Shown: positions 5,101 through 23,219 of the stretch, in pieces | Layout of the letters: the number at the start of each line of letters is the position of its first letter | Position numbering within the stretch: position 1 is the stretch's first letter | From: a virus | Reading direction: 5' to 3' (one strand) | IMG/VR virus record: IMGVR_UViG_3300043331_000131 | Span: 1 to 23,219 of that record | DNA length: 23,219 nucleotides | Made by a program: the position numbers and the translations under genes | Notes under the pieces: generated by a model | Database searches by the model: none | Told to the model about the DNA's origin: nothing | What the model saw: only the letters and a program-made list of their open reading frames with translations

Positions 5101-6144
5101 AGCATCGGTCATGGTACCCAAATCGACCGTACCAGCTACGGCAGCCATGTTAAACAACTCAACTAGCCTAGTTGCCTCTTTAACACTTTGGACGTTTGTT
5201 CCTGAGAAAATCTCGTAAAACGAGTTAGCCATTTCTTCACTGGTGGCAGGAAAACGTTGCATCTGCTGAAGAACAGTGTCCATGACCCGATTAGCAATCC
5301 TGGCGGTAGCCTCAGCAGGCTGACCGATTTGTCTAGCTTGAGTAGCCGCTCTATTGGCCTGAGTAGAGAAGTCAGCAGCACTCTTAGAAGCAAGCCCAAG
5401 TGAGGCAGTAGCAATTAATCCTGTAGTCGCAAGAATTCGACCAAAATGGCTAGCAATACGTGAGCCTTGTTCGAGACTAGTCCACTTTAAGGCACGTTGA
5501 GCTTCCGCGTTTTGGCGCAAGCGTTCCGTTGTACGTGCGACCTCATTACCAATAACACGTTGTTTCTCTGCCGCAAGGCCGGCATCACGTCCAAGACGCC
5601 TGTAAGCGTTAGCGGCAGCAGTTACAGCTGCCTCTCGTGATGTGATATCACTTCTACGCCCGGCTAACTGCGGGCCTACGATAGCAGCTTGTTCAGCTCT
5701 GAGCCTAGATTGAGTAAGCATCAATCTAGACTGTTGAGCTTCTATCATTCTACGTCTATTCGCATCAAGATCGGCGTCTTTGAGACGCTGTGCGTTTCTT
5801 GTTAATTGAATAGAAGTCTGTAACTGTCGTTCTAGATTAAGAACGCCATCACGCGCTAGTTTAACTTGTGCCGCACGGGCACGGGTTAAAGCAGTTTCGG
5901 CGTTGCGTAAAGCGTTCGCCCGTTCAAGCTGCTTTGTACCGTTTCTAAAGGATTCAACCTCGGCGGCTGCGTTCTTCTGAGAGATTAACAGCTTTTCACG
6001 CTGAATGGAAAGATCTTTAGCCCTGTTACGCAGGTTCGTGATGTTGTCGAGTGAGCCTAAGTCACGAGCAACACGACGAAACGTTCTAGACGCCTCGTTA
6101 CGAGCCGTTAAGATCATTCTTATTTCTGAGAACCTGAATGCCAT
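2143..6144 (-). CDS. Tail tape measure protein (TP901-type)
   Basis: This is the longest gene of the window (1333 residues). Residues about 15-240 are rich in charged, helical, coiled-coil-like sequence (repeated Arg/Ala/Glu heptads). Residues about 245-460 match the phage TP901-type tape-measure core (ADFSTQANRAATQARQ; SVKEATRLVELFNMAAVAG; AAVRFGRTTVPQFANSLANV; ATGGRFTSRDATGLFRQI). Hydrophobic helices occur near 600-635 (LLVYASVGALVLGPVVALAG), 672-692 and 710-730, as expected for the part that inserts into the host membrane during DNA ejection. Residues about 880-1140 are long charged helices. The protein sets tail length; at roughly 1.5 angstrom per residue an all-helical span suggests a tail near 200 nm (inference). 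It overlaps the end of the GT frame by 25 bases. No lysozyme or peptidase motif was noticed. Confidence 0.93.
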   Translation of the reverse strand: MAFRFSEIRMILTARNEASRTFRRVARDLGSLDNITNLRNRAKDLSIQREKLLISQKNAAAEVESFRNGTKQLERANALRNAETALTRARAAQVKLARDGVLNLERQLQTSIQLTRNAQRLKDADLDANRRRMIEAQQSRLMLTQSRLRAEQAAIVGPQLAGRRSDITSREAAVTAAANAYRRLGRDAGLAAEKQRVIGNEVARTTERLRQNAEAQRALKWTSLEQGSRIASHFGRILATTGLIATASLGLASKSAADFSTQANRAATQARQIGQPAEATARIANRVMDTVLQQMQRFPATSEEMANSFYEIFSGTNVQSVKEATRLVELFNMAAVAGTVDLGTMTDAALTLFNNFTEGANRTEQLEIMLNDFLAAVRFGRTTVPQFANSLANVVPFAKQAGLQFRDVADAMAVLTRATGGRFTSRDATGLFRQIELLSRPEVVAGLHKMGVEVQDLRTGKMRPLMDVLTDINERLVKTGKFRPGPELLNFFKEVSRVGGAGEGSVGLQGTAQARRTFAFLIQNMDEYHQVSGLIHRDNDQFIKDFDAMSKTPGVQWDIMINQLKSVALTIGRDAIPAFTNLLRPLGDLLHAFNSLSPATKQAIASLLVYASVGALVLGPVVALAGGIITLIAHFRTLRRWSGGGAGIEKVASGAVVGAAAFKNLARETGYTRIGMIGLMATLLTGIPVLVKFRDQLLQLTTGAQGLEGALKAILILLGGFALSAALTRVLKLVATFGTMTRSATAAGFAVGALLGKLKLLRGPFIATIVLEVLLNLDKIEALGDRVFGALGLGPDKLDLEDIMGQSDKLRKRFGTEKFVEILEKTLFASGQSPSTIMRRAIGEMGDAVDEMVPDFIRKWQARQAEIAAVGKQLVGGPVGVGELADARKWSQGNLSAKQYLATLKHISELEAAARAATTPEDARVKWQAYAKAVNAANAKLTDLQKQTMNEVLATFQQTGTISDANFRSRWSQIQALKQAAEKSGDFATAKRAAKMEADLRAKATSEQLAAIETVSSATTEEAKLSQAAFDKEYKRVQQLKKLAEKTHNIEDIRKFQKAQEDLSAHSESFMMQAAEQRDQYLDELHQKELDRLKEEAAQRKRNAENAKEAIKSMTDNIMGIYESALQRNRSQLGELFGGPFMQSGQMADRLRFGFRARPTDLLRDVREAAQNFVTFRSSLDRLAAKGAPEELISQLKELGPESQKNIDTLLRMSPGMFANYVKAFKRGQTEAEAAARQDLQAQLDKWARFGKQVALAIARGVRSENVALETELRNMILRMFPGLASQAGATPQTAPQPKTVNFTWNGQVLGKEEIATQMKNGLFAYRTKAPLE

Positions 6145-6401
6145 TTCTGTTTCCAGGCTGTTATGCCTTGTGTCTCCTTCTCATGTTCTGCTTTAGCATG
6201 AAGAATTGCATCCATCTTCTTTAGATGCACTTCATCTTGATCTAACAGACCACCAGCCTTAGGCAGAACGTGAAACTGCTCACAAAGCAGAGTAATGCGA
6301 ATCCAGTTAGCTACGTCCTTAATTACAGGACTAGGAATTCTAGTGGCTAATCTGTCTGTTCTCCCGCGGAAGATGATACGAGCGACTGAGGAAAAGTTTC
6401 C
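6120..6401 (-). CDS. GT tail assembly chaperone, -1 frame C-terminal part
   Basis: This is a 93-codon open stretch in the -1 frame relative to the upstream chaperone gene. It opens at 6401, runs past the zero-frame stop (6347-6349) and ends with TAA at 6120-6122, inside the tape-measure start. The coding-like part reads ATRIPSPVIKDVANWIRI, then CEQFHVLPKAGGLLDQDEVH, then a Lys/Glu/His-rich helix ending in WKQKWHSGSQK. No good independent start exists, and the arrangement G, -1 shifted GT, tape measure is the classic tail-chaperone architecture (lambda gpG/gpGT). Ribosomes slipping -1 in the overlap would make a fusion. T-domains bind the tail tube subunit while the G-part binds the tape measure. 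The shift site itself is inferred (see the slippery-site entry). Confidence 0.85.
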   Translation of the reverse strand, partial: GNFSSVARIIFRGRTDRLATRIPSPVIKDVANWIRITLLCEQFHVLPKAGGLLDQDEVHLKKMDAILHAKAEHEKETQGITAWKQKWHSGSQK

Positions 6402-6796
6402 TCATCAACTTCTTCATCCTCATTATTGATCTCATCGAGGATATTCTCAATCTCTCCGCCGACTTTGGGGTGTAGTGCCTGAATCACTAGCTCACTACTC
6501 AAGTCAAGCGCAACACCATTGTGATCTGTGAGGTTGTGCTCACCAATGCAGTATCTAAAGTCAAACACCCTAGCCCACTTGTTCAAGGTTTCCAACTCAA
6601 AGCGGTTAGTCTCCTTTTCGATCTGCTGACGCGACTTACCGCTTGCGACCTCGGACTCCATGAACATGCGTGTTGCCTTATCACGTCGTTCTAACTTCTT
6701 ACCGTAAGGCAAGGGGCGCACCTTGATGTACGCCCCTTCGAGTGATTTAAGATCCCGATGCTCGTATTCGTTCGGGTCAACGATTGCAACTGGCAT
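6347..6796 (-). CDS. Tail assembly chaperone, G-like (zero frame)
   Basis: Lies between the major tail protein and the tape measure, the fixed position of the G-type chaperone. The product has 149 residues from the chosen ATG and an acidic C-terminal tail (DEINNEDEEVDEETF). It has a mixed alpha/beta front (PNEYEHRDLKSLEGAYIKVR) and a helical middle (RFELETLNKWARVFDFRYCI). I chose the ATG at 6796 rather than the in-frame GTG at 6805, because the Shine-Dalgarno stretch (AAGGAGAGG) ends too close to the GTG and is better spaced for the ATG. A fraction of ribosomes should shift -1 before its stop to give the GT form. Primary sequence of these chaperones is poorly conserved, so the call rests on position plus the overlapping -1 frame. 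Confidence 0.85.
   Translation of the reverse strand: MPVAIVDPNEYEHRDLKSLEGAYIKVRPLPYGKKLERRDKATRMFMESEVASGKSRQQIEKETNRFELETLNKWARVFDFRYCIGEHNLTDHNGVALDLSSELVIQALHPKVGGEIENILDEINNEDEEVDEETFPQSLVSSSAGEQTD
6362..6395 (-). promoter_or_regulatory. Candidate -1 ribosomal frameshift region
   Basis: The -1 frame is open only from 6401 and the zero frame ends at 6347, so slipping must occur in this 50-base stretch. Two candidates are visible. At 6392-6395 the zero-frame codons ACT TTT CCT allow the Phe tRNA to re-pair perfectly on TTT after moving back one base. At 6362-6365 the codons GCG GGA allow a Gly tRNA to move to GGG. Neither is a canonical X_XXY_YYZ heptamer such as lambda GGGAAAG. The first would keep only a short -1 leader and is preferred. 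Confidence 0.45.
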
Positions 6797-6822
6797 ATTA
6801 GCCACCTCTCCTTGGTGTCTTA

Positions 6823-13477: not shown

Positions 13478-14908
13478 CTAAGCACCGCTTGGGGTGCCAT
13501 CGTTTACATTCCCCTGTCCCATACCTTTATCAGTACGAGGCTGGTTTTTGTTCTGACCGCCTGCTCTACCAACTGAACCAGGCTGTAGCTCAGGACGTGG
13601 TTCAAGCTTCTTCGGGAACTGAACTATCTCACGTGCGTAAGCCTCAGTCTCGTCGTCCATCGTGATAACTTCCTCAGCCACTAGACGTGTGACAGCCGTG
13701 GCCCACATCTGCAAGTCTTTAACCTCGCCTATGTTGCGTACCTTCATCGACGGGAACTCATCCGTGTCGAAGTTGTAGGCAACGATACGAGGGATCAAGA
13801 ACTTGTTGAACACTTCACAGATATACTGGCCCATGTACCTAGTGGTCTTGAGGAAAATGTCTGCGGCTGTTGCACTTGAGGCACGATCAGTCAAGTTGGG
13901 CTGCAAGAACTGAATCAAGATGTTCTTCATGATTTCAGTGTCATGATGACTCGCGCTCTCTAACGCATTAACTAGCTGGCCCTTCAACTCTGCGAATCCA
14001 ACAGTGAAGTTAGGTGGGCGAACGATATACGAGTATTCGTTTGTACGCAGGTTACGACCAAGCTGGTGGGCAACAACCCTGTCTTGTTCGGAGAAGCCAA
14101 TAGGCAACTCAATGTCAGGCACGCCGATACCGTGGCGTTCTTTTTGGATGGCGTCAATCTTGTAGAGGTTGTGCTTGTAGAACCAATGCTCGTAAGCACT
14201 CCTAAGCACAGACTGGCCTTCTAAGTCAGAACCCTCACCCTCGAATACGAAGATCAATAGGTTCTCAATAGGAATGTTGACCTGTTCAACCTTGCCATCA
14301 GCGCGAATAGCGTTATGGTCAACTGACTCAGGCCCACCATTGTCGTCGTAATTGATTTTCACAATGGTATTGGCAGGACGATAAGCAAGTTTCTTAAGCA
14401 TCGTGTAGGCTTTACGATTAGGCGTGCCAGAACTACCCTGCGTACCAGTGGACTTACGAATAGTTGGCGCCCATTCTCGTACTTCCCAAATGTCGTTAAG
14501 GACTGAATTGCCGTACTCATACATACGACACACGTCTTGAATGGTTAACAGCCAAGGCGAGCTGGGACAATGAAAGATGTTTCTGCCAACGAACTCGGCT
14601 ATCACACGAGACTGCTCTGTATCGTTGAAGGCGTCAATGTAATAGTCGCCTCCGAATACAGGAGCCTTGCCAGCTCTCAGACTAACACGAACTGAAACAT
14701 CACCCTTAGCCATCCTTGAGTACGTGCGAAGGGCTAACTGCTTGCTAGCCAGTTCAGGTACTACGTCCTGAATCGAGCTACCACGTTGAGAACCTATCTC
14801 ATCATAGATACCTCTAGGCGGCTGTATAGCGGGCTTTGAGGCATAGGACGTGCCAGTGACCCGCTTAGCGGGCGTGGCATCCTTACGTCGTAGAGGTCTA
14901 ACGGCCAT
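13478..14908 (-). CDS. Portal protein (DUF935/Mu gp29-like)
   Basis: A protein of 476 residues between large terminase and protease. An Arg-rich start (MAVRPLRRKDATPAKRVTG) is followed by a helical/beta body. Motifs include 'MYEYGNSVLNDIWEVREWAP', 'MLKKLAYRPANTIVKINYD', 'QVNIPIENLLIFVFEGEGSD', 'GQSVLRSAYEHWFYKHNLYK' and 'RHGIGVPDIELPIGFSEQD'. The 'KLAYRP..TI', 'IP...L.IF..EGEG.D..GQS.LR.AY..W..K' and 'ER.G.G.P' set is the DUF935-type portal signature. The protein forms the dodecameric ring at the unique head vertex for DNA entry and exit. The C-terminus is Gln/Gly/Asn-rich (RAGGQNKNQPRTDKGMGQGN). Its ATG lies just after the terminase stop with no strong Shine-Dalgarno, suggesting coupling. 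Confidence 0.9.
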   Translation of the reverse strand: MAVRPLRRKDATPAKRVTGTSYASKPAIQPPRGIYDEIGSQRGSSIQDVVPELASKQLALRTYSRMAKGDVSVRVSLRAGKAPVFGGDYYIDAFNDTEQSRVIAEFVGRNIFHCPSSPWLLTIQDVCRMYEYGNSVLNDIWEVREWAPTIRKSTGTQGSSGTPNRKAYTMLKKLAYRPANTIVKINYDDNGGPESVDHNAIRADGKVEQVNIPIENLLIFVFEGEGSDLEGQSVLRSAYEHWFYKHNLYKIDAIQKERHGIGVPDIELPIGFSEQDRVVAHQLGRNLRTNEYSYIVRPPNFTVGFAELKGQLVNALESASHHDTEIMKNILIQFLQPNLTDRASSATAADIFLKTTRYMGQYICEVFNKFLIPRIVAYNFDTDEFPSMKVRNIGEVKDLQMWATAVTRLVAEEVITMDDETEAYAREIVQFPKKLEPRPELQPGSVGRAGGQNKNQPRTDKGMGQGNVNDGTPSGA

Positions 14909-14915
14909 GTTTCAG

Positions 14916-16319
14916 CTAGTAACCGAGGTTGTCGTAGTTCCTTAGGTTGTCGAGAATTGTAGAGCTGCCAGCGACGAAGATGCCAGAGTCGTCTTGCGAC
15001 CCGTAGCCACCTGTGCCACCATACACGTCCATTAGACTAAACCTGTTACCCAATACGGCCCACTCATTAAAGAAGTAACGCAAGGCGTCAGGGCCGTGAT
15101 CGTCATAATCACGTTGGCCCTCACGTTCGTTCTGACCTTCTCTTACCTTTGGAGTCTGTAGTTCTTCAATCTGACGAATAAGCTCGGGACAGTACTTACT
15201 AACGAACAGCTTGGGCTTCTTTGTAGACTTGTCAACTTTCAACCACTGGGAAACAGCTTCGATACCTGTAACCCAGGGAACTGGGTTCGCCATTATAGGC
15301 ACACGAAGTATGAGTTGTAGAGTGGCAATTGAATCAGCGCCTCGTGGATCAGCCGCAATTGCATGAACCCTGTAGCTCTGTGGGTTCTCACGATTAAGCA
15401 GAATGTGCCCATGTTCCCAAGTCGTCTTGTGACGAACTTGATACTCACGCCACACATACACATTGTCATTTTCGTCTACTTGAATGTCGTAGCACGCGAA
15501 TGGCGCGGAGAACCCAAAGTCTATAGCGAGCCAATTAGTCCACGAAGGGTTATAGACGTAATCGCTCATTACATGGATCGTGTCATTCCAATCCTTGTAA
15601 ATTTTACCCTCTCGAGCCGTGAACTCTGCTGCGTACTCCTGTAACCAATAATGTTCACTAACCTGATGCCTAATACGTACAAGCTCAGGGTCATCATAAC
15701 CACCAGGGAACATCACTGTGTTGAACCACGTTGGGAACCGCCAGCTATCAAACTCTTTGAGAGACGGATCACGACCCATCAGATACATAGACTTATACCA
15801 GTTATTCCCACGAGGGGTACTAGGAAAGATAGCTGCGCCTCGTTTATCAGATAACGCCGGCTGAATGTACATCTGCCACGTACTCATTAAATGAAGTGCA
15901 GCCTCGCTCATGCAGGCGTAGTCTAAACCCTCACCAACAAGCCCGTCTTGCTTCTCTGCGGAGACAACCTCAACAACTGTATTCCAAGGCAAAACCACTC
16001 GCATGTCACCTTGCTTGACGTTGTAAGACGACTTGAGTTTGGGCACCTTTAGTTTACGTACAAAGTCATCATGAACAACGCGGAACTCTTTTTCACCAAG
16101 TCTATAAGTGGGACCAACTATCCAGATGTAACGGTCTGGACTCATAGCTCGAGCAGTAATCTCGTGACCCGCAGCAATAGACTTGCCGAACCTGCGTCCA
16201 CAACACGGTATCGTGTACCTAGCCTGACTACTATGAATCTGCTGTTGATACTTGTGCGGCGTGTAGTCAAGCATTTTAAACAGCTTGGACTTGTCGATAT
16301 CAACAAGTTGGTAACTCAT
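14916..16319 (-). CDS. Terminase large subunit
   Basis: The packaging motor with ATPase and nuclease, 467 residues from the ATG at 16319, which overlaps the upstream TGA (ATGA). An in-frame ATG at 16331 is a weaker alternative. Walker A is CCGRRFGKS (about residues 39-47). The Walker B region is LDYACMSEAA (about 132-141), where Ser-Glu replaces the usual Asp-Glu. The coupling motif STPRG follows at about 167. The nuclease domain shows AIDFGFSAP (Asp267), AADPRGADS (Asp324) and DYDDHGPDALRYFF (Asp407/Asp411), the expected acidic metal-binding set. Length is typical of the family. The protein cuts concatemers and threads DNA through the portal encoded next. Confidence 0.93.
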   Translation of the reverse strand: MSYQLVDIDKSKLFKMLDYTPHKYQQQIHSSQARYTIPCCGRRFGKSIAAGHEITARAMSPDRYIWIVGPTYRLGEKEFRVVHDDFVRKLKVPKLKSSYNVKQGDMRVVLPWNTVVEVVSAEKQDGLVGEGLDYACMSEAALHLMSTWQMYIQPALSDKRGAAIFPSTPRGNNWYKSMYLMGRDPSLKEFDSWRFPTWFNTVMFPGGYDDPELVRIRHQVSEHYWLQEYAAEFTAREGKIYKDWNDTIHVMSDYVYNPSWTNWLAIDFGFSAPFACYDIQVDENDNVYVWREYQVRHKTTWEHGHILLNRENPQSYRVHAIAADPRGADSIATLQLILRVPIMANPVPWVTGIEAVSQWLKVDKSTKKPKLFVSKYCPELIRQIEELQTPKVREGQNEREGQRDYDDHGPDALRYFFNEWAVLGNRFSLMDVYGGTGGYGSQDDSGIFVAGSSTILDNLRNYDNLGY

Positions 16320-16615
16320 GCAGGCACCCATTTACCTTCCGTGATGAAACCGTGTCTAGACTCAGTGCAGTTCCTACACTGTACTGATGGTTTTAACGTC
16401 AAAGGCGCGCCCTCCTTCGATTCAAGACCCCACAGGGAGCGGCTCTTGTTTCCAGGTAATAACCAGAACACGCTACCGGCGCAAACCGTGCCATCACTGA
16501 GACGATGTGCAATTACTATGCCGCCCTTGACAGGCCAGCCACGCATCCCGTGGCCTAAGTCCATAGGGAACTCTTTTACGAACTCAGTCTCAGTATAAGT
16601 ACCGACGGTGCTCAA
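16316..16615 (-). CDS. DUF6527-like Cys protein
   Basis: A protein of 99 residues. Start is a TTG at 16615 overlapping the TGA of the upstream gene in a TTGA junction; there is no strong Shine-Dalgarno, so the start is uncertain, and Met17 is an alternative. It reads 'GGIVIAHRLSDGTVCAGSVF', 'RSLWGLESKEGAPLTLKPSV' and 'QCRNCTESRHGFITEGKWVP'. A 'W.L......PLTL.PSV.C..C...HGFI..GKW' layout matches my recollection of the DUF6527 family, in which Cys/His likely bind a metal. Its role beside terminase is unknown; similar small proteins occur near packaging genes in phages, and the family has been linked to bacterial ubiquitin-like operons, which need not apply here. Confidence 0.55.
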   Translation of the reverse strand: MSTVGTYTETEFVKEFPMDLGHGMRGWPVKGGIVIAHRLSDGTVCAGSVFWLLPGNKSRSLWGLESKEGAPLTLKPSVQCRNCTESRHGFITEGKWVPA

Positions 16616-16953
16616 GTCTCGTTTGTAGTCTTATCCTTTGAGATGCTCTTGAACAGTTCTTCCCAAGCGTCAGCGGTCTTACCGTTGTCAGCAGCTCTCA
16701 TGGCCTCGGCAAAGACAAACTTGGCTAAGTTGGCTCTTACAGATTCACTGTCACCATGCAAGAGCAAGTAAGCGATGGTTTCACCCGCATCAGGGACAAG
16801 CTCCATAAGCTTGTTACGGGCCATTTTCGCCGTCTTTGGGTCATCAACATCTACGTCCTTGAATTCTTCCTCAAGTGACTTCTTGTAGGCATGGAGCCTA
16901 GCAAGCTCTGCCTGTAGTTCTGCGTTATAACGTTCTTCTGCGGATTCGCTCAT
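16612..16953 (-). CDS. Small helical protein, candidate terminase small subunit
   Basis: A protein of 113 residues. It has a long N-terminal charged helix (EERYNAELQAELARLHAYKK and on to SLEEEFKDV), then 'RNKLMELVPDAGETIAYLLL', 'HGDSESVRANLAKFVFAEAM' and a basic tail (FKSISKDKTTNET). The 'L..LVPDA...I..LL.HG.SE.VR...AKFV...AM' pattern resembles helical modules of small terminase or DNA-recognition proteins, and it lies two genes before the large subunit. No other small-terminase candidate is seen in the window. ATG at 16953 overlaps the upstream TGA (ATGA). DNA-binding or motor-recognition function is inferred and not proven by any decisive motif. Confidence 0.55.
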   Translation of the reverse strand: MSESAEERYNAELQAELARLHAYKKSLEEEFKDVDVDDPKTAKMARNKLMELVPDAGETIAYLLLHGDSESVRANLAKFVFAEAMRAADNGKTADAWEELFKSISKDKTTNET

Positions 16954-17180: not shown

Positions 17181-17780
17181 CTAGTAAAGGTAGTCACCTA
17201 AGTGACCCACAGGAATAGTGGGATCGCACCAAATCTCGATATCGGCTTTAATTGCGGCTTTACAGAAAGCCACGTCCTCACCCACAGGAGGGACACATGG
17301 GAAATACGGCTTCTTTAATTTGTCGAACACTTGCATATTAATAAGCATGAACCCTGTTGGGATAGCAGCACACTTGAACAATTCTTTGGGGACAGCTTCG
17401 TGAGGTACGGTGGCATAGCGACCTTTTGAGTCAGCAAACTTGATTGTATTGAGAGGTGGGACAGAGCCTTTGACGTTATACATAGCACCCACAATATCCT
17501 TGTCATGACCTAATAACTTGTGGATGCCGTCGTGTGGGAATACAACGTCTGTGTCTATGAACATCAGGTGTGACGAGTTAGACTCTAATGCTTCCTGCAC
17601 AAGTGCGTCTCTGTTCCAATGTGTATAAGGACCCTTTCTAGCTGTGAGAGTTATATCGTATGGAGTAGCCTTAACTGCCACAGCCAACGATAAAGCCGTT
17701 TGGACCTTCATCGAGTCGTAGCAGGCAAGCCCTATAGTGATGTTGGTGATAGGTCTGCGGCCGTTTGTTACAAGATTCAC
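17181..17780 (-). CDS. GT-A-type glycosyltransferase
   Basis: A protein of 199 residues with a GTG start overlapping the methyltransferase stop (GTGA); an upstream in-frame start at 17807 would lie inside that gene. It begins 'TNITIGLACYDSMKVQTALS', typical of GT-A type transferases, followed by 'GPYTHWNRDALVQEALE'. The DXD metal motif is FIDTDV (Asp76/Asp78), and 'GAMYNVKG' and 'IPTGFMLI' follow. 'VGEDVAFCKAAI' near the end resembles the acidic 'GEDxxFCxR' acceptor-side motif of such families. It should transfer a sugar from a nucleotide donor in the cytoplasm. The acceptor (fibre protein, DNA or host glycan) cannot be told; coupling to a methyltransferase and fibre genes suggests modification of a surface part. 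Membrane segments are absent. Confidence 0.82.
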   Translation of the reverse strand: MNLVTNGRRPITNITIGLACYDSMKVQTALSLAVAVKATPYDITLTARKGPYTHWNRDALVQEALESNSSHLMFIDTDVVFPHDGIHKLLGHDKDIVGAMYNVKGSVPPLNTIKFADSKGRYATVPHEAVPKELFKCAAIPTGFMLINMQVFDKLKKPYFPCVPPVGEDVAFCKAAIKADIEIWCDPTIPVGHLGDYLY

Positions 17781-18331
17781 AGGAACACCACACCCAAGCC
17801 ACCCCACTTGTGGTGCCCTAGGATAGTTATGGTACGACGGCCTTCTTCGGCGCAGAGATTCTGCCAGAACTTTGGAACGTCTAGATCGCTCTCGATGGGT
17901 AATACGTCATGGAACACAACAACGGCTCCTGGTGCTGCCATGTCTTTATAGGTGAGCCAGTCAGCTAACACGCCAGACTCAGAGTGGTCTCCATCAATGA
18001 AAATCCAATCAAATGGTGCAAGCTGTGAAACGTCATTGACGACCTCAGAATCGTGCGACGAGCCTTCAAACAGATGCAAGTCTGTGTCTGTTTCGTCTGC
18101 CAGCTCTCGCCACTTAAGTGAAAGCGATTCATCAATGTCTTTGTCGATCGCAACCACAAGTCCACCATCAAGCCAGTACGAGAGTGTACCTCCGTGCCAT
18201 ATACCTATTTCTAGTTTGTTCCTGGGCTTGAGTCTATGGTAAATGTTCAGTAGCTCAGCAAACTCCCATGCATGTTGCATTATGTGGAATTGGTTTTGAG
18301 CAAACTCAAATTGGGCTTGTGTAGGCTCCAT
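17777..18331 (-). CDS. SAM-dependent methyltransferase (class I, MTase_24/CmcI-like)
   Basis: A protein of 184 residues. Motif I is 'LEIGIWHGGT' (residues 40-49), followed by 'VVAIDKDID' with Asp63 likely binding the SAM ribose. 'FDWIFIDGDH' (107-115, Asp112/Asp114/His115) and 'GAVVVFHDV' (His141/Asp142) complete the layout typical of the cephalosporin-hydroxylase-like/MTase_24 group, which methylates small sugars and related groups. The ATG overlaps the upstream TAA by one base (TAATG), and the gene end overlaps the glycosyltransferase start by 4 bases, so the two are coupled. The substrate is not determined by sequence; joint action with the glycosyltransferase on sugars or fibre proteins is the leading inference. 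No DNA-methyltransferase motif (such as DPPY) is seen. Confidence 0.8.
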   Translation of the reverse strand: MEPTQAQFEFAQNQFHIMQHAWEFAELLNIYHRLKPRNKLEIGIWHGGTLSYWLDGGLVVAIDKDIDESLSLKWRELADETDTDLHLFEGSSHDSEVVNDVSQLAPFDWIFIDGDHSESGVLADWLTYKDMAAPGAVVVFHDVLPIESDLDVPKFWQNLCAEEGRRTITILGHHKWGGLGVVFL

Positions 18332-20037: not shown

Positions 20038-20841
20038 CTACGGCCAAATCTCAAGCTTGCCGAGAGAACCCTGTCTCATGGTAATGGCAGACGTTGTTAC
20101 TTCGGCACCGTACTGCAACTGAATATCACCGTCAGCAGAAGGTACGATGATGCCTTCTAGTTCTCCCATGAAGTCTGTAGTAACAGCGGGTGTTCCTGTT
20201 CCTACAACGCTGTCGCCTGACGATGTTAAATGGCCTCTAAAGATGTTTGCAGTACCGTCCGCGGCAGTAGAGACAGGCAAGTCGGCTGCCCCTGTGAACC
20301 TGGTAAACGCCGGTACTGTCACACCGAGCCTAACGCCGTTGGTAGTCGCAGCAGACTGGTAAATGATGTTGAACTTAAACTTGTAATAGTTACCAGCTAA
20401 CACAGGCAAGTTCATACCAGTGACGTTAGCCATCGTAGTAACCGTGGTGGAGGCTAGATCGGCTGTGAGCTTACAGAACTTGTCTCCCGGTGCTGGCTGA
20501 TATCTAAAGAAGCCGATGCCTTCCACGTAGGATAAAGCTTCGCCGGCTCCCAGTGACTCTTTGTGAAGCTCGAAGTCAGTACCGTTCTGATCAAAGATAA
20601 CTGTGATAGTAACAGCCGCAGAACCCTTATTACGGATATGCAGCGTCTTGATGTTGCGAACCGTGCTAGCCCCCGGTGCAGCAACAACGTCAGTTGTGGT
20701 TGCTGTGGTAATAGCCGTGTTGGTCTTACCAAACGAGACTGTGGTACCTGAAATGTCACCCCAAGATGCATGAACATCAACGTTCTGAGCAGCGTCGGTG
20801 GTGACTTGTAGCTTATCGGTGGTAGCAGCAAGGTTAAGCAT
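20038..20841 (-). CDS. Beta-rich fibre-type virion protein
   Basis: A protein of 267 residues. The N-terminal half ('LQVTTDAAQNVDVHASWGDI', 'TDVVAAPGASTVRNIKTLHI', 'GSAAVTITVIFDQNGTDF', 'EGIGFFRYQPAPG') is a common phage domain in which short strands surround 'NIKTLHIRNKGSAAVTI'. The C-terminal half ('GNYYKFKFNIIYQSAATTNG', 'VRLGVTVPAFTRFTGAADL', 'GELEGIIVPSADGDIQLQYG') is a second beta domain of the type seen in virion trimers. It is built for extracellular structure with no enzyme motifs. The ATG overlaps the end of the regulator gene by 8 bases, and a GAGGA lies about 6 bases upstream. A fibre, decoration or receptor-contact role is inferred. Confidence 0.68.
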   Translation of the reverse strand: MLNLAATTDKLQVTTDAAQNVDVHASWGDISGTTVSFGKTNTAITTATTTDVVAAPGASTVRNIKTLHIRNKGSAAVTITVIFDQNGTDFELHKESLGAGEALSYVEGIGFFRYQPAPGDKFCKLTADLASTTVTTMANVTGMNLPVLAGNYYKFKFNIIYQSAATTNGVRLGVTVPAFTRFTGAADLPVSTAADGTANIFRGHLTSSGDSVVGTGTPAVTTDFMGELEGIIVPSADGDIQLQYGAEVTTSAITMRQGSLGKLEIWP

Positions 20842-21217
20842 GGATATCCTCTTGTCTTATTAGTCCATATTTCATCGCCTTTGCTACAGCTTGAGTGATC
20901 GTGTGAGCACGCAACTTGTTTCTAGCTCGTACCATGTGCGTGTCTAACGTGTATTTGTTCCTACCAGTTACAGACGGTAAATGAGTTTTACGAACCCCGT
21001 TTGCAGAGAGCTTCAACAGACTTAGTTCAAGATAGGTGAGCCTGTCCTCGATGGGAAGCGGGTCAGGCAATTCTCTGTCGGATTCGGCTAGTCTTACTTG
21101 TGTGGTTTTCATGTAAAAATCAATCTCATGTTCTGGAATTACCGGAACACGACCTAGGTCACTTAACAGCCTGCTGATGCCTGAATGACCTTTGAGTGTG
21201 TGCCAGGTGTCATACAT
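20834..21217 (-). CDS. LuxR-type helix-turn-helix DNA-binding protein
   Basis: A protein of 127 residues from the ATG at 21217; longer in-frame starts (21262 ATG, 21274 TTG) lie inside the preceding gene. The N-terminus (MYDTWHTLKGHSGISRLLSD) is short, without a visible PAS, receiver or autoinducer domain. Residues 59-120 match the LuxR-type C-terminal HTH from end to end: 'RLTYLELSLLKLSANGVRKT' then 'HLPSVTGRNKYTLDTHMVRA' then 'RNKLRAHTITQAVAKAMKYG' and LI. Compared with the usual 'LT.RE.EVL.L.A.G.....IA..L..S..TV..H...I..KL.......A' it keeps Leu60, Leu67/Leu70, the T90-x-x-x-H94 pattern and the final A-x-x-A-x-x-x-G-L. No clear Shine-Dalgarno is seen. Confidence 0.72.
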   Translation of the reverse strand: MYDTWHTLKGHSGISRLLSDLGRVPVIPEHEIDFYMKTTQVRLAESDRELPDPLPIEDRLTYLELSLLKLSANGVRKTHLPSVTGRNKYTLDTHMVRARNKLRAHTITQAVAKAMKYGLIRQEDIHA

Positions 21218-21662
21218 GCGTGATGTAAGCGAAGTCGGGTCTGAAGTACATGGTGTCAGCATTAGGATGAGCAATACCCAACACTTGAATTACCTCGTCT
21301 GTGGCATTCGGTTGTGTTTGGGTTAGTCCGCCGGCTGTAGTACTCAAGTATAATAAGCCACCAATGGTCCAAGCCCAGGTGTCGTTCCTGACGTTACCTA
21401 TCAATAAGAACTCGCCAACGGCGTCGGCCGAAATTGCCGCAATAGCCATCGCCACAGCAGGTGCAGTTGCAACTCCAGAGGCATCGGCTTTCCAAGCTTT
21501 ACCATCACTCTTGAAGTAAACGACTTCCCCAAACGCCAGGGCCTCACCAGCGGTCTTTTTAACAATAAGACCAGTGGCCTTAACATTTGCAGGCAAGGTT
21601 TCCACGATCTGAAACCCGTCTTGCGGGAAGTCAAGGCCACTCAGTACCTTAATACGGCTCAT
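21210..21662 (-). CDS. Beta-rich virion/fibre-type protein (DUF2190-like look)
   Basis: A protein of 150 residues. Sequence: 'LSGLDFPQDGFQIVETLPAN', 'TGLIVKKTAGEALAFGEVVY', 'FKSDGKAWKADASGVATAPA', 'GEFLLIGNVRNDTWAWTIGG', 'LLYLSTTAGGLTQTQPNATD', 'VIQVLGIAHPNADTMYF'. The 'T.G.AL.FGEVVYFKSDGKAWKADA...' and 'GG.LYLSTTAG.LTQT.P' pair is a widespread phage virion domain related to decoration or fibre proteins. It starts with ATG at 21662 directly after a three-unit 13-bp tandem repeat, without a ribosome binding site. No enzyme motifs. Function is virion structural by inference. Confidence 0.65.
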   Translation of the reverse strand: MSRIKVLSGLDFPQDGFQIVETLPANVKATGLIVKKTAGEALAFGEVVYFKSDGKAWKADASGVATAPAVAMAIAAISADAVGEFLLIGNVRNDTWAWTIGGLLYLSTTAGGLTQTQPNATDEVIQVLGIAHPNADTMYFRPDFAYITHV

Positions 21663-21700
21663 TAGTTGGTAATGTTAGTTGGTAATGTTAGTTGGTAATG
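21662..21700. repeat. Three perfect 13-bp tandem repeats between fibre genes
   Basis: The plus-strand unit TTAGTTGGTAATG occurs three times without mismatch or gap (21662-21674, 21675-21687, 21688-21700) and fills the gap between the fibre stop (21701-21703) and the next ATG, whose first base lies inside the array. On the coding strand each unit has TAA; because 13 is not a multiple of 3, the three TAA codons fall in three different frames. It may be a strand-slippage expansion, a translational stop block, an mRNA element or a protein-binding array. No Shine-Dalgarno or promoter is visible inside it. Confidence 0.9.
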
Positions 21701-22819
21701 CTAGCCAATAACGACAACGCGGTAGACCTTACCATTGGCAGGTGCTACGGCGAAGTTAATTGTGACGTTGTTTGCGTCGGTTCTAACCACGTCTACGAAA
21801 ACCATTGCATTCGTGGTAGCTTCATACACGCTAACGACAATGTCTGTGGTGTTAAGCGCGTGGTTTACGACGAAGTCAACATCGGCTCCGTCACCTGTGA
21901 TATCTGCGGCGAACCGCGTCATAAAGCCTAGTGACGTTTTTGCGCCGGCCGCCGTATTAGCGTTAGTACCACCGTTGGCGATTGGCAGCACGCCAGTGAC
22001 CTTGGTGGTAAGGTCAATAGAACCTGCCAGCATCGCATTGGTAATACCGAGAGCCTTAACACGCAACGTATCGGCGTTGATCTCAATACTCGAGTTGTCA
22101 ACATTGACACTTAACGTGTTGCCGGTGAGGTCTAGGCCGTTGCCAGCAGTTAGTGATGCAGCAGCTGGGAACTGCGTGAACGTTAAGCCCGTAGTACCAA
22201 CAACGATAGGGTCGTTAGTAGTAAGGAACCAAACGGTATCAAGGTTCGCGGTCCCCTCAGAAACCGCCACAGCGAGGCCAGACGTAACTTCTGCATTGGC
22301 GTCTGCGTCAGTTGAGCGGCCAGCGGCACCAGAGGCGACAACTACGTAAATGCCGTTTTCTTCTGGAGCTGTCTGGTTCTTCAACAACACGCGGTCGCCT
22401 GTAGCAAGTGTTACGCCGTCGAGCGTGTCACCGTCCTCAAGCTCAGTTGCAATAGCAACGTTAGCGGTGCTTGCGGCACGCACACTGGCTTTCCAGTCCA
22501 GACCTGTGAAAACGGTATCGACGTAGTTCTTGTTAGCTGCATCTGTTCCAGTGGCGGGAGACGCCAGGTTAATAATCTTGTTACTGTTGAGGTTTACATC
22601 GGCCGCGGCGATTGTGATTTCGTCTAGTGAGAAAGACTCGTCGTAAATGGTTCTGAAAGCGCCGTTAGCACGTAAGCGCAACACATCTGTGTCTGTGCGA
22701 TACCAGACACGTCCGTCATTAAGTAAGGTGCCTGGGTCCGCTGCCAAGTTCTCCAAAACAGCAGCGATCAGCTGATTACCTACTAAGTCAATGCTTGATA
22801 GGTGTTTCTGTGCAGCCAA
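21701..22819 (-). CDS. Tail fibre protein
   Basis: A protein of 372 residues. The start is TTG (22817-22819) with GGAGGTGG at 22827-22834 upstream. The N-terminus (LSSIDLVGNQLIAAVLENLA) is followed by 'GRVWYRTDTDVLRLRANGAF', 'NKIINLASPATGTDAANKNY', 'VLPIANGGTNANTAAGAKTS' and a C-terminal 'FVVNHALNTTDIVVSVYEAT'. The 'KI.NLA.P..GTDAA.K.YVD' and 'GVLPIANGGTN' motifs are standard in phage tail fibres and long side fibres, and the mid-part (ENGIYVVVASGAAGRSTDAD) is beta-rich. It should bind host surface sugars or proteins. The terminal beta domain is also seen, in shorter form, in the collagen-like gene upstream. No chaperone or peptidase domain is visible. Confidence 0.85.
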   Translation of the reverse strand: MAAQKHLSSIDLVGNQLIAAVLENLAADPGTLLNDGRVWYRTDTDVLRLRANGAFRTIYDESFSLDEITIAAADVNLNSNKIINLASPATGTDAANKNYVDTVFTGLDWKASVRAASTANVAIATELEDGDTLDGVTLATGDRVLLKNQTAPEENGIYVVVASGAAGRSTDADANAEVTSGLAVAVSEGTANLDTVWFLTTNDPIVVGTTGLTFTQFPAAASLTAGNGLDLTGNTLSVNVDNSSIEINADTLRVKALGITNAMLAGSIDLTTKVTGVLPIANGGTNANTAAGAKTSLGFMTRFAADITGDGADVDFVVNHALNTTDIVVSVYEATTNAMVFVDVVRTDANNVTINFAVAPANGKVYRVVVIG

Positions 22820-22821
22820 GC

Positions 22822-23157
22822 TTAAACCACCTCCGCTCTCCCAGCTATCGCTGCTGATAGATGAACCGTTAAGTTGTCGTCGTCAATGTACTCAACTTCA
22901 CCAATGTAATGTGTATCTGCGGTGTCATACACCATCACGCCAGCAGGACGTTTTCCCAAACTATGGTTAATAGACCAGTCAGTTGCAGGAGCGCCTTGAA
23001 TATGTGTGTAAGTCTCCCCTGGAGGTCCTTGATCTCCCTTAGGCCCAGGAGGTCCTTGTTGTACAGTTACAACATCAGTGACCTGTTCAACTATTACAAC
23101 TCGGTCAGGCTCTTGAATTGTAATAGTTGTTTGTGGTTCACTTATGGTTAGTGGCAT
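22822..23157 (-). CDS. Short collagen-like fibre/virion protein
   Basis: A protein of 111 residues. The first 34 residues are Thr/Val/Ile-rich (TISEPQTTITIQEPDRVVIV; TDVVTVQQ). A short collagen segment follows (GPPGPKGDQGPPG, four Gly-X-Y repeats from about residue 35), then a beta domain 'WSINHSLGKRPAGVMVYDTA', 'THYIGEVEYIDDDNLTVHLS', 'AAIAGRAEVV'. The C-terminal domain resembles the closing domain of the neighbouring fibre. Gly-X-Y segments trimerise in phage fibres. The ATG lies 3 bases after the previous stop, and a GAGG about 11 bases upstream is a weak ribosome binding site. It likely belongs to the fibre apparatus. Confidence 0.72.
   Translation of the reverse strand: MPLTISEPQTTITIQEPDRVVIVEQVTDVVTVQQGPPGPKGDQGPPGETYTHIQGAPATDWSINHSLGKRPAGVMVYDTADTHYIGEVEYIDDDNLTVHLSAAIAGRAEVV
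22827..22834 (-). promoter_or_regulatory. Ribosome binding site supporting a TTG start
   Basis: GGAGGTGG lies 7 bases before TTG at 22817-22819, across the stop of the upstream gene. No ATG is suitably placed nearby, so this supports TTG initiation of the fibre gene. Confidence 0.65.
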
Positions 23158-23160
23158 AGA

Positions 23161-23219
23161 TTAAGGAACCTCGACCGCGTTTTTACGTAACACTACCTTA
23201 CCGTGGAAGCATGTAATAA
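23161..23219 (-). CDS. C-terminal end of an upstream gene, partial
   Basis: The last 18 codons of a frame open from the right edge, ending in TAA at 23161-23163: residues ITCFHGKVVLRKNAVEVP. The rest lies beyond the window, so no function can be given. It is on the same strand as all other genes and its stop is 3 bases from the next ATG, so it belongs to the same operon. Confidence 0.5.
   Translation of the reverse strand, partial: ITCFHGKVVLRKNAVEVP

Follow-up and report, generated by a model that had tools for sequence, protein, structure and literature searches.

What does a LuxR-type DNA-binding protein do among the tail-fibre genes of a phage? The question is raised by the gene of a 127-aa protein, P0001, in the virus record IMGVR_UViG_3300043331_000131, whose positions 1 to 23,219 are the whole stretch of DNA that was analysed (hereafter the window). 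The P0001 gene is carried by a soil-type tailed phage, within a tail-fibre gene block. The genes of the window run on the minus strand, and translation places P0001 at 20834-21217 of that strand, with the ATG at 21217 and the stop codon at 20834-20836. The initial annotation had given this ORF without naming a strand; the ORF is real and its limits are exact, and the plus strand of the same interval is closed by many stop codons. As had also been claimed, the gene overlaps its neighbours. It shares 8 nt with the upstream gene (21210-21662, minus strand), which encodes a cement/decoration-like protein (PF09956, Phage_cement_2), and 8 nt with the downstream gene (20038-20841, minus strand), which encodes a 267-aa protein (cluster cl35) related to one encoded in the fibre block of locus L045. 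The HTH gene was found to have no Shine-Dalgarno sequence of its own. The SD-like stretch AAGAGGA before the ATG of 20038-20841 lies inside the final codons of the HTH gene. It is likely that the HTH gene is co-transcribed and translationally coupled with its neighbours. Because of the 8-nt overlaps, the lack of its own SD sequence, and the AAGAGGA in its final codons, co-expression with the late genes is very likely, as judged from this anatomy.

The surroundings are those of a late operon. From the upstream end, the minus strand encodes two fibre-like proteins (22822-23157 and 21701-22819), the cement-like protein, the HTH protein, and the 267-aa protein. These are followed by a glycine-rich domain protein, a 341-aa fibre-like protein, a methyltransferase, a glycosyltransferase-like protein, small genes, and the terminase large subunit gene (TerL; 14916-16331, minus strand), which lies 4.9 kb downstream of the HTH gene in the same direction and served as the synteny anchor. 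Beyond TerL, there are genes for the portal, protease, decoration, capsid, and tape measure proteins, of which the decoration and tape measure proteins are named from position and size only. Thus, with a cement-like protein upstream and the glycine-rich and fibre-like proteins downstream, the location of the HTH gene among virion-type genes proved correct. The glycosyltransferase-like gene (17181-17807) and the methyltransferase gene (17777-18331; Methyltransf_24) are found in the late block between the fibre genes and the terminase, and possibly serve virion or surface modification.

Is P0001 really a LuxR-type protein? A LuxR-type HTH had been proposed at residues 59-120, with a match to the LuxR DNA-binding domain running almost from end to end. 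The four-helix LuxR/GerE DNA-binding domain (20858-21043, minus strand; residues ~59-120 by phrog_3282, TIGR03541, and AlphaFold2) was borne out by a leave-one-out HMM, AlphaFold2, and Foldseek, but the sequence match to Pfam had been overstated. A Pfam hmmscan of P0001 gave no match, and its PF00196 score in its own record was 11.2 bits, which does not reach the curated gathering cut-off of 23.5 bits. Given the profile and fold evidence, this sub-threshold score is read as a limit of sensitivity. The PHROG family phrog_3282 matches residues 60-120 (E 8e-5); it is labelled 'sigma factor' solely on account of the HTH, and its members are in effect phage HTH proteins. The C-terminal HTH part of NCBIfam TIGR03541 matches residues 58-119 (E 8e-5). 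Sequence matches in the PDB were of the LuxR/NarL type only (EsrB, VraR, RhlR, QscR, TraR, and others; E 0.015-1.4). Direct relatives of P0001 were detected neither by tblastn in phages nor by a pattern scan of viral contigs. I aligned P0001 with 12 HTH proteins from related phages (alignment A2) and built an HMM without P0001. When the 11,381 ORFs of the loci were searched, this HMM recovered P0001 with an E-value of 5e-9. P0001 is the lowest-scoring member of the family, yet it stands far above the next ORF; the best ORF outside the family (E 0.004) is itself a sigma factor. Most of the 12 relatives score well above the PF00196 cut-off, reaching 67 bits. At the level of sequence, P0001 is thus a homologue of the GerE/LuxR-type HTH proteins (PF00196 superfamily), with a LuxR domain that is present but diverged.

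The predicted structure agrees with this assignment. AlphaFold2, run on A2, placed helices at residues 62-72, 77-84, 88-101, and 107-116, with a pLDDT of ~96-97 over residues 61-120, and the model has the four-helix GerE fold with its HTH. The best 50 Foldseek matches in the PDB were all LuxR/NarL/GerE proteins (prob 1.00), with no E-value below 0.001 for this 127-residue query; phage VqmA (PDB 7dwm) was among the matches of P0001. The stand-alone DNA-binding domains of VraR, LiaR, and GerE superpose on the P0001 domain at 0.9-1.4 Å (VraR, rmsd 1.3 Å, TMt 0.88; GerE, 1fse, rmsd 0.9 Å, TMt 0.87). The recognition helix (20915-20956, minus strand; residues 88-101) was located by AlphaFold2, comparison within A2, and alignment with VraR. 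At residue 92, P0001 has Asp, whereas ten of the 12 relatives have Lys and the other two Gln; at residue 96, it has Val, whereas most of the 12 have Lys or Arg. The specificity or the DNA binding may therefore be altered. The HTH as a whole is strongly basic (net +9).

Does P0001 sense anything? The N-terminal extension (21044-21217, minus strand; residues 1-58) is net acidic, with 6 K/R and 11 D/E, and was poorly determined by AlphaFold2, which gave two low-confidence helices. It has no match in Pfam, PHROG, or NCBIfam, which bears out the remark in the initial annotation that no sensing domain is visible. With only 58 residues before the HTH, there is no N-terminal autoinducer-binding domain of a quorum-sensing LuxR receptor, and Pfam, PHROG, and NCBIfam revealed no receiver domain of a NarL-type response regulator within these residues. 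A weak local similarity to the N-terminus of a relative in L099 (shuffle p 0.0045) is held to be tentative because it is one of six pairs tested; none of the other N-terminal comparisons with P0001 was significant by shuffling. The GerE/NarL HTH serves many systems unrelated to quorum sensing. The suggestion that P0001 hijacks host quorum or cell-density regulons was not supported, as neither an AHL-binding domain nor evidence for a host regulon was found.

Is such a gene common in related phages? In IMG/VR, relatives of the window's TerL are numerous, and several belong to records of 56-59 kb. When the virus records related by terminase were scanned with PF00196, about one-fifth of them proved to contain GerE-type HTH frames. 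These are mostly short, and most score above the Pfam cut-off; the remaining matches were the window's own 11.2 bits and a bacterial genome (G083). A TerL scan of genome contigs gave one distant bacterial contig, whose LuxR matches were left out as belonging to a bacterial genome. Of the terminase-related loci, 28 extend at least 7 kb upstream of TerL, although some may be near-duplicate records. Nine of the 28 have an HTH gene of the P0001 family on the same strand as TerL. In seven of the nine (L010, L044, L045, L047, L053, L082, and L086), the gene lies 5-7 kb upstream of TerL, as compared with 4.9 kb in the window, and in two (L080 and L084) it lies just before TerL. A relative directly precedes TerL in G067 and G069. 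In G042 and G021, the HTH gene follows the lysis genes at the end of the late operon, and in G051 and G034 it is in the early region. The protein of G021 (L136:3549-4283, minus strand), encoded after the lysis genes, is 244 aa in length and has two tandem LuxR-type HTH domains. Searches via the downstream neighbour or the portal (single-protein pattern scans) gave no relatives, nor did the upstream neighbour in phages.

On the TerL tree, the presence of the HTH gene is scattered. It is absent from most terminase relatives and from 14 relatives found by capsid protein, including two records of ~57 kb (by two scans, one with a positive control and one without its own). How, then, did the gene arrive? 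L010 and L009 are 89% identical in nucleotide sequence over 5 kb and diverge exactly at the stop codon of the gene preceding the HTH gene. Past this point, L010 holds the HTH gene, a hydrolase-like gene, and a lectin-like gene, the latter two named by eye; the hydrolase-like gene has no Pfam match. Compared with L084, L086 has a single gene inserted, the HTH gene. From these two comparisons and the scattered distribution, the HTH gene is accessory and cassette-borne: it comes in either at the head of a fibre cassette that is exchanged or alone, as a single-gene indel. Since many close relatives are without it, the gene is dispensable. Its absence from the 14 capsid relatives and its patchiness on the TerL tree mean that it cannot be a core late switch; a core late-gene activator would be conserved in all close relatives and lie ahead of the late operon, whereas this gene is patchy and lies inside the operon.

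The strongest pointer to function is the company that the gene keeps in some relatives. When 44 records were scanned with PF04542, only three contained sigma70 region 2, and all three have the sigma70-like gene running into the 5′ end of a short LuxR HTH gene. The overlap with the start of the LuxR HTH gene is 133 nt in L097 (926-1689, plus strand), 172 nt in L105 (1013-1689, plus strand), and 85 nt in L104 (1426-2207, minus strand), and the two genes stand in the same relative frame every time. A programmed frameshift fusing the sigma and LuxR frames was considered and rejected; no slippery heptamer was apparent by eye, and each of the three overlaps contains an ATG. This pairing hints that the short LuxR protein accompanies transcription machinery. 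PF04542 had no match in the window record, so that P0001 itself is not a sigma70 factor and no sigma gene was found in these 23 kb, although the record, which ends at 23219, may be a fragment.

Are there known systems of this kind? The closest functional analogue of P0001, also by the Foldseek results, is the stand-alone GerE of Bacillus subtilis, likewise a small effector-only protein that is almost entirely LuxR HTH. GerE works at a late stage and targets structural genes, those of the spore coat. P0001 differs from it in being a phage protein, in its ~22% identity, in the extra N-terminus of ~58 aa, and in the Asp at position 92. The NarL/FixJ-type response regulators (VraR, LiaR, DegU, and EsrB) share the fold of the DNA-binding domain, with ~25-31% identity to those of VraR and DegU; P0001 lacks their receiver domain. 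In the literature, 'LuxR solo' denotes a full receptor without LuxI, and the term is therefore unsuitable for P0001. Similar short LuxR-type HTH proteins occur among the phrog_3282 proteins and in cultured phages, several of them near the terminase or portal or upstream of the late region. Vibrio phages BT-1011 and V039C have proteins of ~70-100 aa near the terminase and portal, Rhizobium phage RHph_Y1_10 has one beside a GcrA-like regulator upstream of the terminase, and RHph_N2 is a further Rhizobium case. These proteins are annotated as hypothetical or LuxR. In contrast to P0001, they are encoded between TerL and the portal or upstream of TerL and not in a fibre block, and by the searches made, these Vibrio and Rhizobium phages are not relatives of the window phage. 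Phage-encoded LuxR receptors are known from Aeromonas phage ARM81ld (PMC6456758). Like P0001, these receptors and phage VqmA (PDB 7dwm) have a LuxR-type DNA-binding domain, but they also have ligand-binding sensor domains, of which P0001 has none. A report on roseophages describes LuxR genes and proposes quorum sensing for them, without a test (PMC11288001). It is common for phage LuxR genes to be taken for quorum sensors; the P0001 family comprises sensor-less forms inside virion operons, which move with fibre cassettes and sometimes overlap a sigma-factor gene.

What is the likely role of P0001? Because related phages carry similar proteins only occasionally, its most probable role is that of an optional regulator acting on late or fibre genes, and not that of a quorum sensor. 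The best explanation, to which I give an even chance of being right, is that P0001 is an accessory GerE-like transcription factor from the late operon, without a sensor and constitutively active, that acts on late or fibre-cassette promoters. It would be made from the late (virion) operon of the tailed phage and, having no phosphorylation or ligand switch, would be active once made. It may dimerise, probably via the last helix of the HTH and/or the short N-terminus, and may bind phage DNA at late or fibre-cassette promoters. By contacting the host RNA polymerase, it could tune, in one direction or the other, the transcription of the co-travelling fibre genes. In some relatives, the HTH protein may work with the phage sigma70-like protein from the overlapping upstream gene. 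Control of late genes, which the initial annotation had put forward as one option, is partly supported in that it would fit both the position of P0001 and its company, namely the sigma70-like partners in three relatives and the terminase and GcrA-like neighbours in cultured phages. No target site or promoter for P0001 was identified, and a promoter and terminator scan gave fewer sites than shuffled sequences.

Alternatively, P0001 may be moron-like cargo, a regulator of host promoters (those of stress, surface, or density regulons) that travels with fibre cassettes because it changes the state or surface of the host and not phage transcription. I regard this as rather unlikely, but as the most serious of the alternatives. 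The patchy, cassette-borne distribution and the single-gene indel would suit such cargo, as would the occurrence of the relatives' HTH genes in several genome regions and the presence of other accessory genes in the block (the glycosyltransferase-like and methyltransferase genes). The textbook bacterial-type HTHs of the relatives, with PF00196 scores of up to 67 bits, are compatible with capture from host regulators. However, no host targets were seen, expression from the late virion operon would leave little time for reprogramming the host, and the pairing with sigma factors suggests that the transcribing polymerase is phage-directed.

A bolder proposal, which at present seems unlikely, is that, when phages of the ~57-kb group swap receptor-binding cassettes, each fibre cassette brings a stand-alone LuxR effector of its own as the regulator that switches it on, accompanied in some cases by a sigma70-like factor from an overlapping frame. 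P0001 would be a sigma-less, diverged form of such a control unit. The association with the fibre cassette and with sigma is the part worth following. If each HTH protein does drive the cassette with which it travels, transcription control would be built into host-range modules; if not, the case warns usefully against labels such as quorum or lysogeny regulator for genes of this kind.

Might P0001 instead be a diverged HTH without a role in transcription, either a structural or DNA-packaging accessory or a decaying passenger? Asp92 and Val96 in the recognition helix and the lack of its own SD sequence would be in keeping with this, but the four-helix core is intact (pLDDT ~97, net +9), and so is the reading frame, which fits tightly to both neighbours and supplies at its 3′ end the SD-like stretch for the next gene. 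The relatives directly before TerL in G067 and G069 occupy a place where a small terminase is also plausible; in the window, a separate candidate small terminase gene (cluster cl18) lies at 16612-16953. A non-regulatory P0001 is quite improbable. Least probable is a role in host quorum sensing as a receptor without a sensor or as a decoy, P0001 forming heterodimers with host LuxR proteins or competing with them: the LuxR-type receptors QscR and RhlR are nearest by Foldseek E-value and phage LuxR receptors are known (PMC6456758), but P0001 has no AHL-binding domain, its residues 1-58 match nothing known, and its fold is equally common to NarL-type response regulators (VraR and LiaR) and GerE.

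Ahead of the cement-like gene, there is a 13-bp direct repeat, CATTACCAACTAA on the minus strand, in 3.3 copies (21662-21704). The array adjoins the operon and takes up the whole gap in front of the ATG of 21210-21662, a place in which one would expect an SD sequence. It is possibly a regulatory site. A scan of other viral contigs did not find even the two-copy form of the repeat, and no dyad was seen by eye; the array was therefore rejected as a shared operator. The suggested link between P0001 and this array is likewise unsupported, the array being a direct repeat seen in no other viral contig.

Two further observations concern the virion genes beyond the terminase. The portal protein (13478-14908) matches both the Mu portal model (PF06074) and the Thermus phage P23-45 portal model (PF21919). 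Downstream of the ORF at 6347-6805, which precedes the tape measure gene, the -1 frame stays open for a stretch (RIPSPVIKDVANWIRITLLCEQFHVLPKAGG...; region 6144-6805); a tail assembly chaperone gene that uses a programmed frameshift would be expected to look like this.
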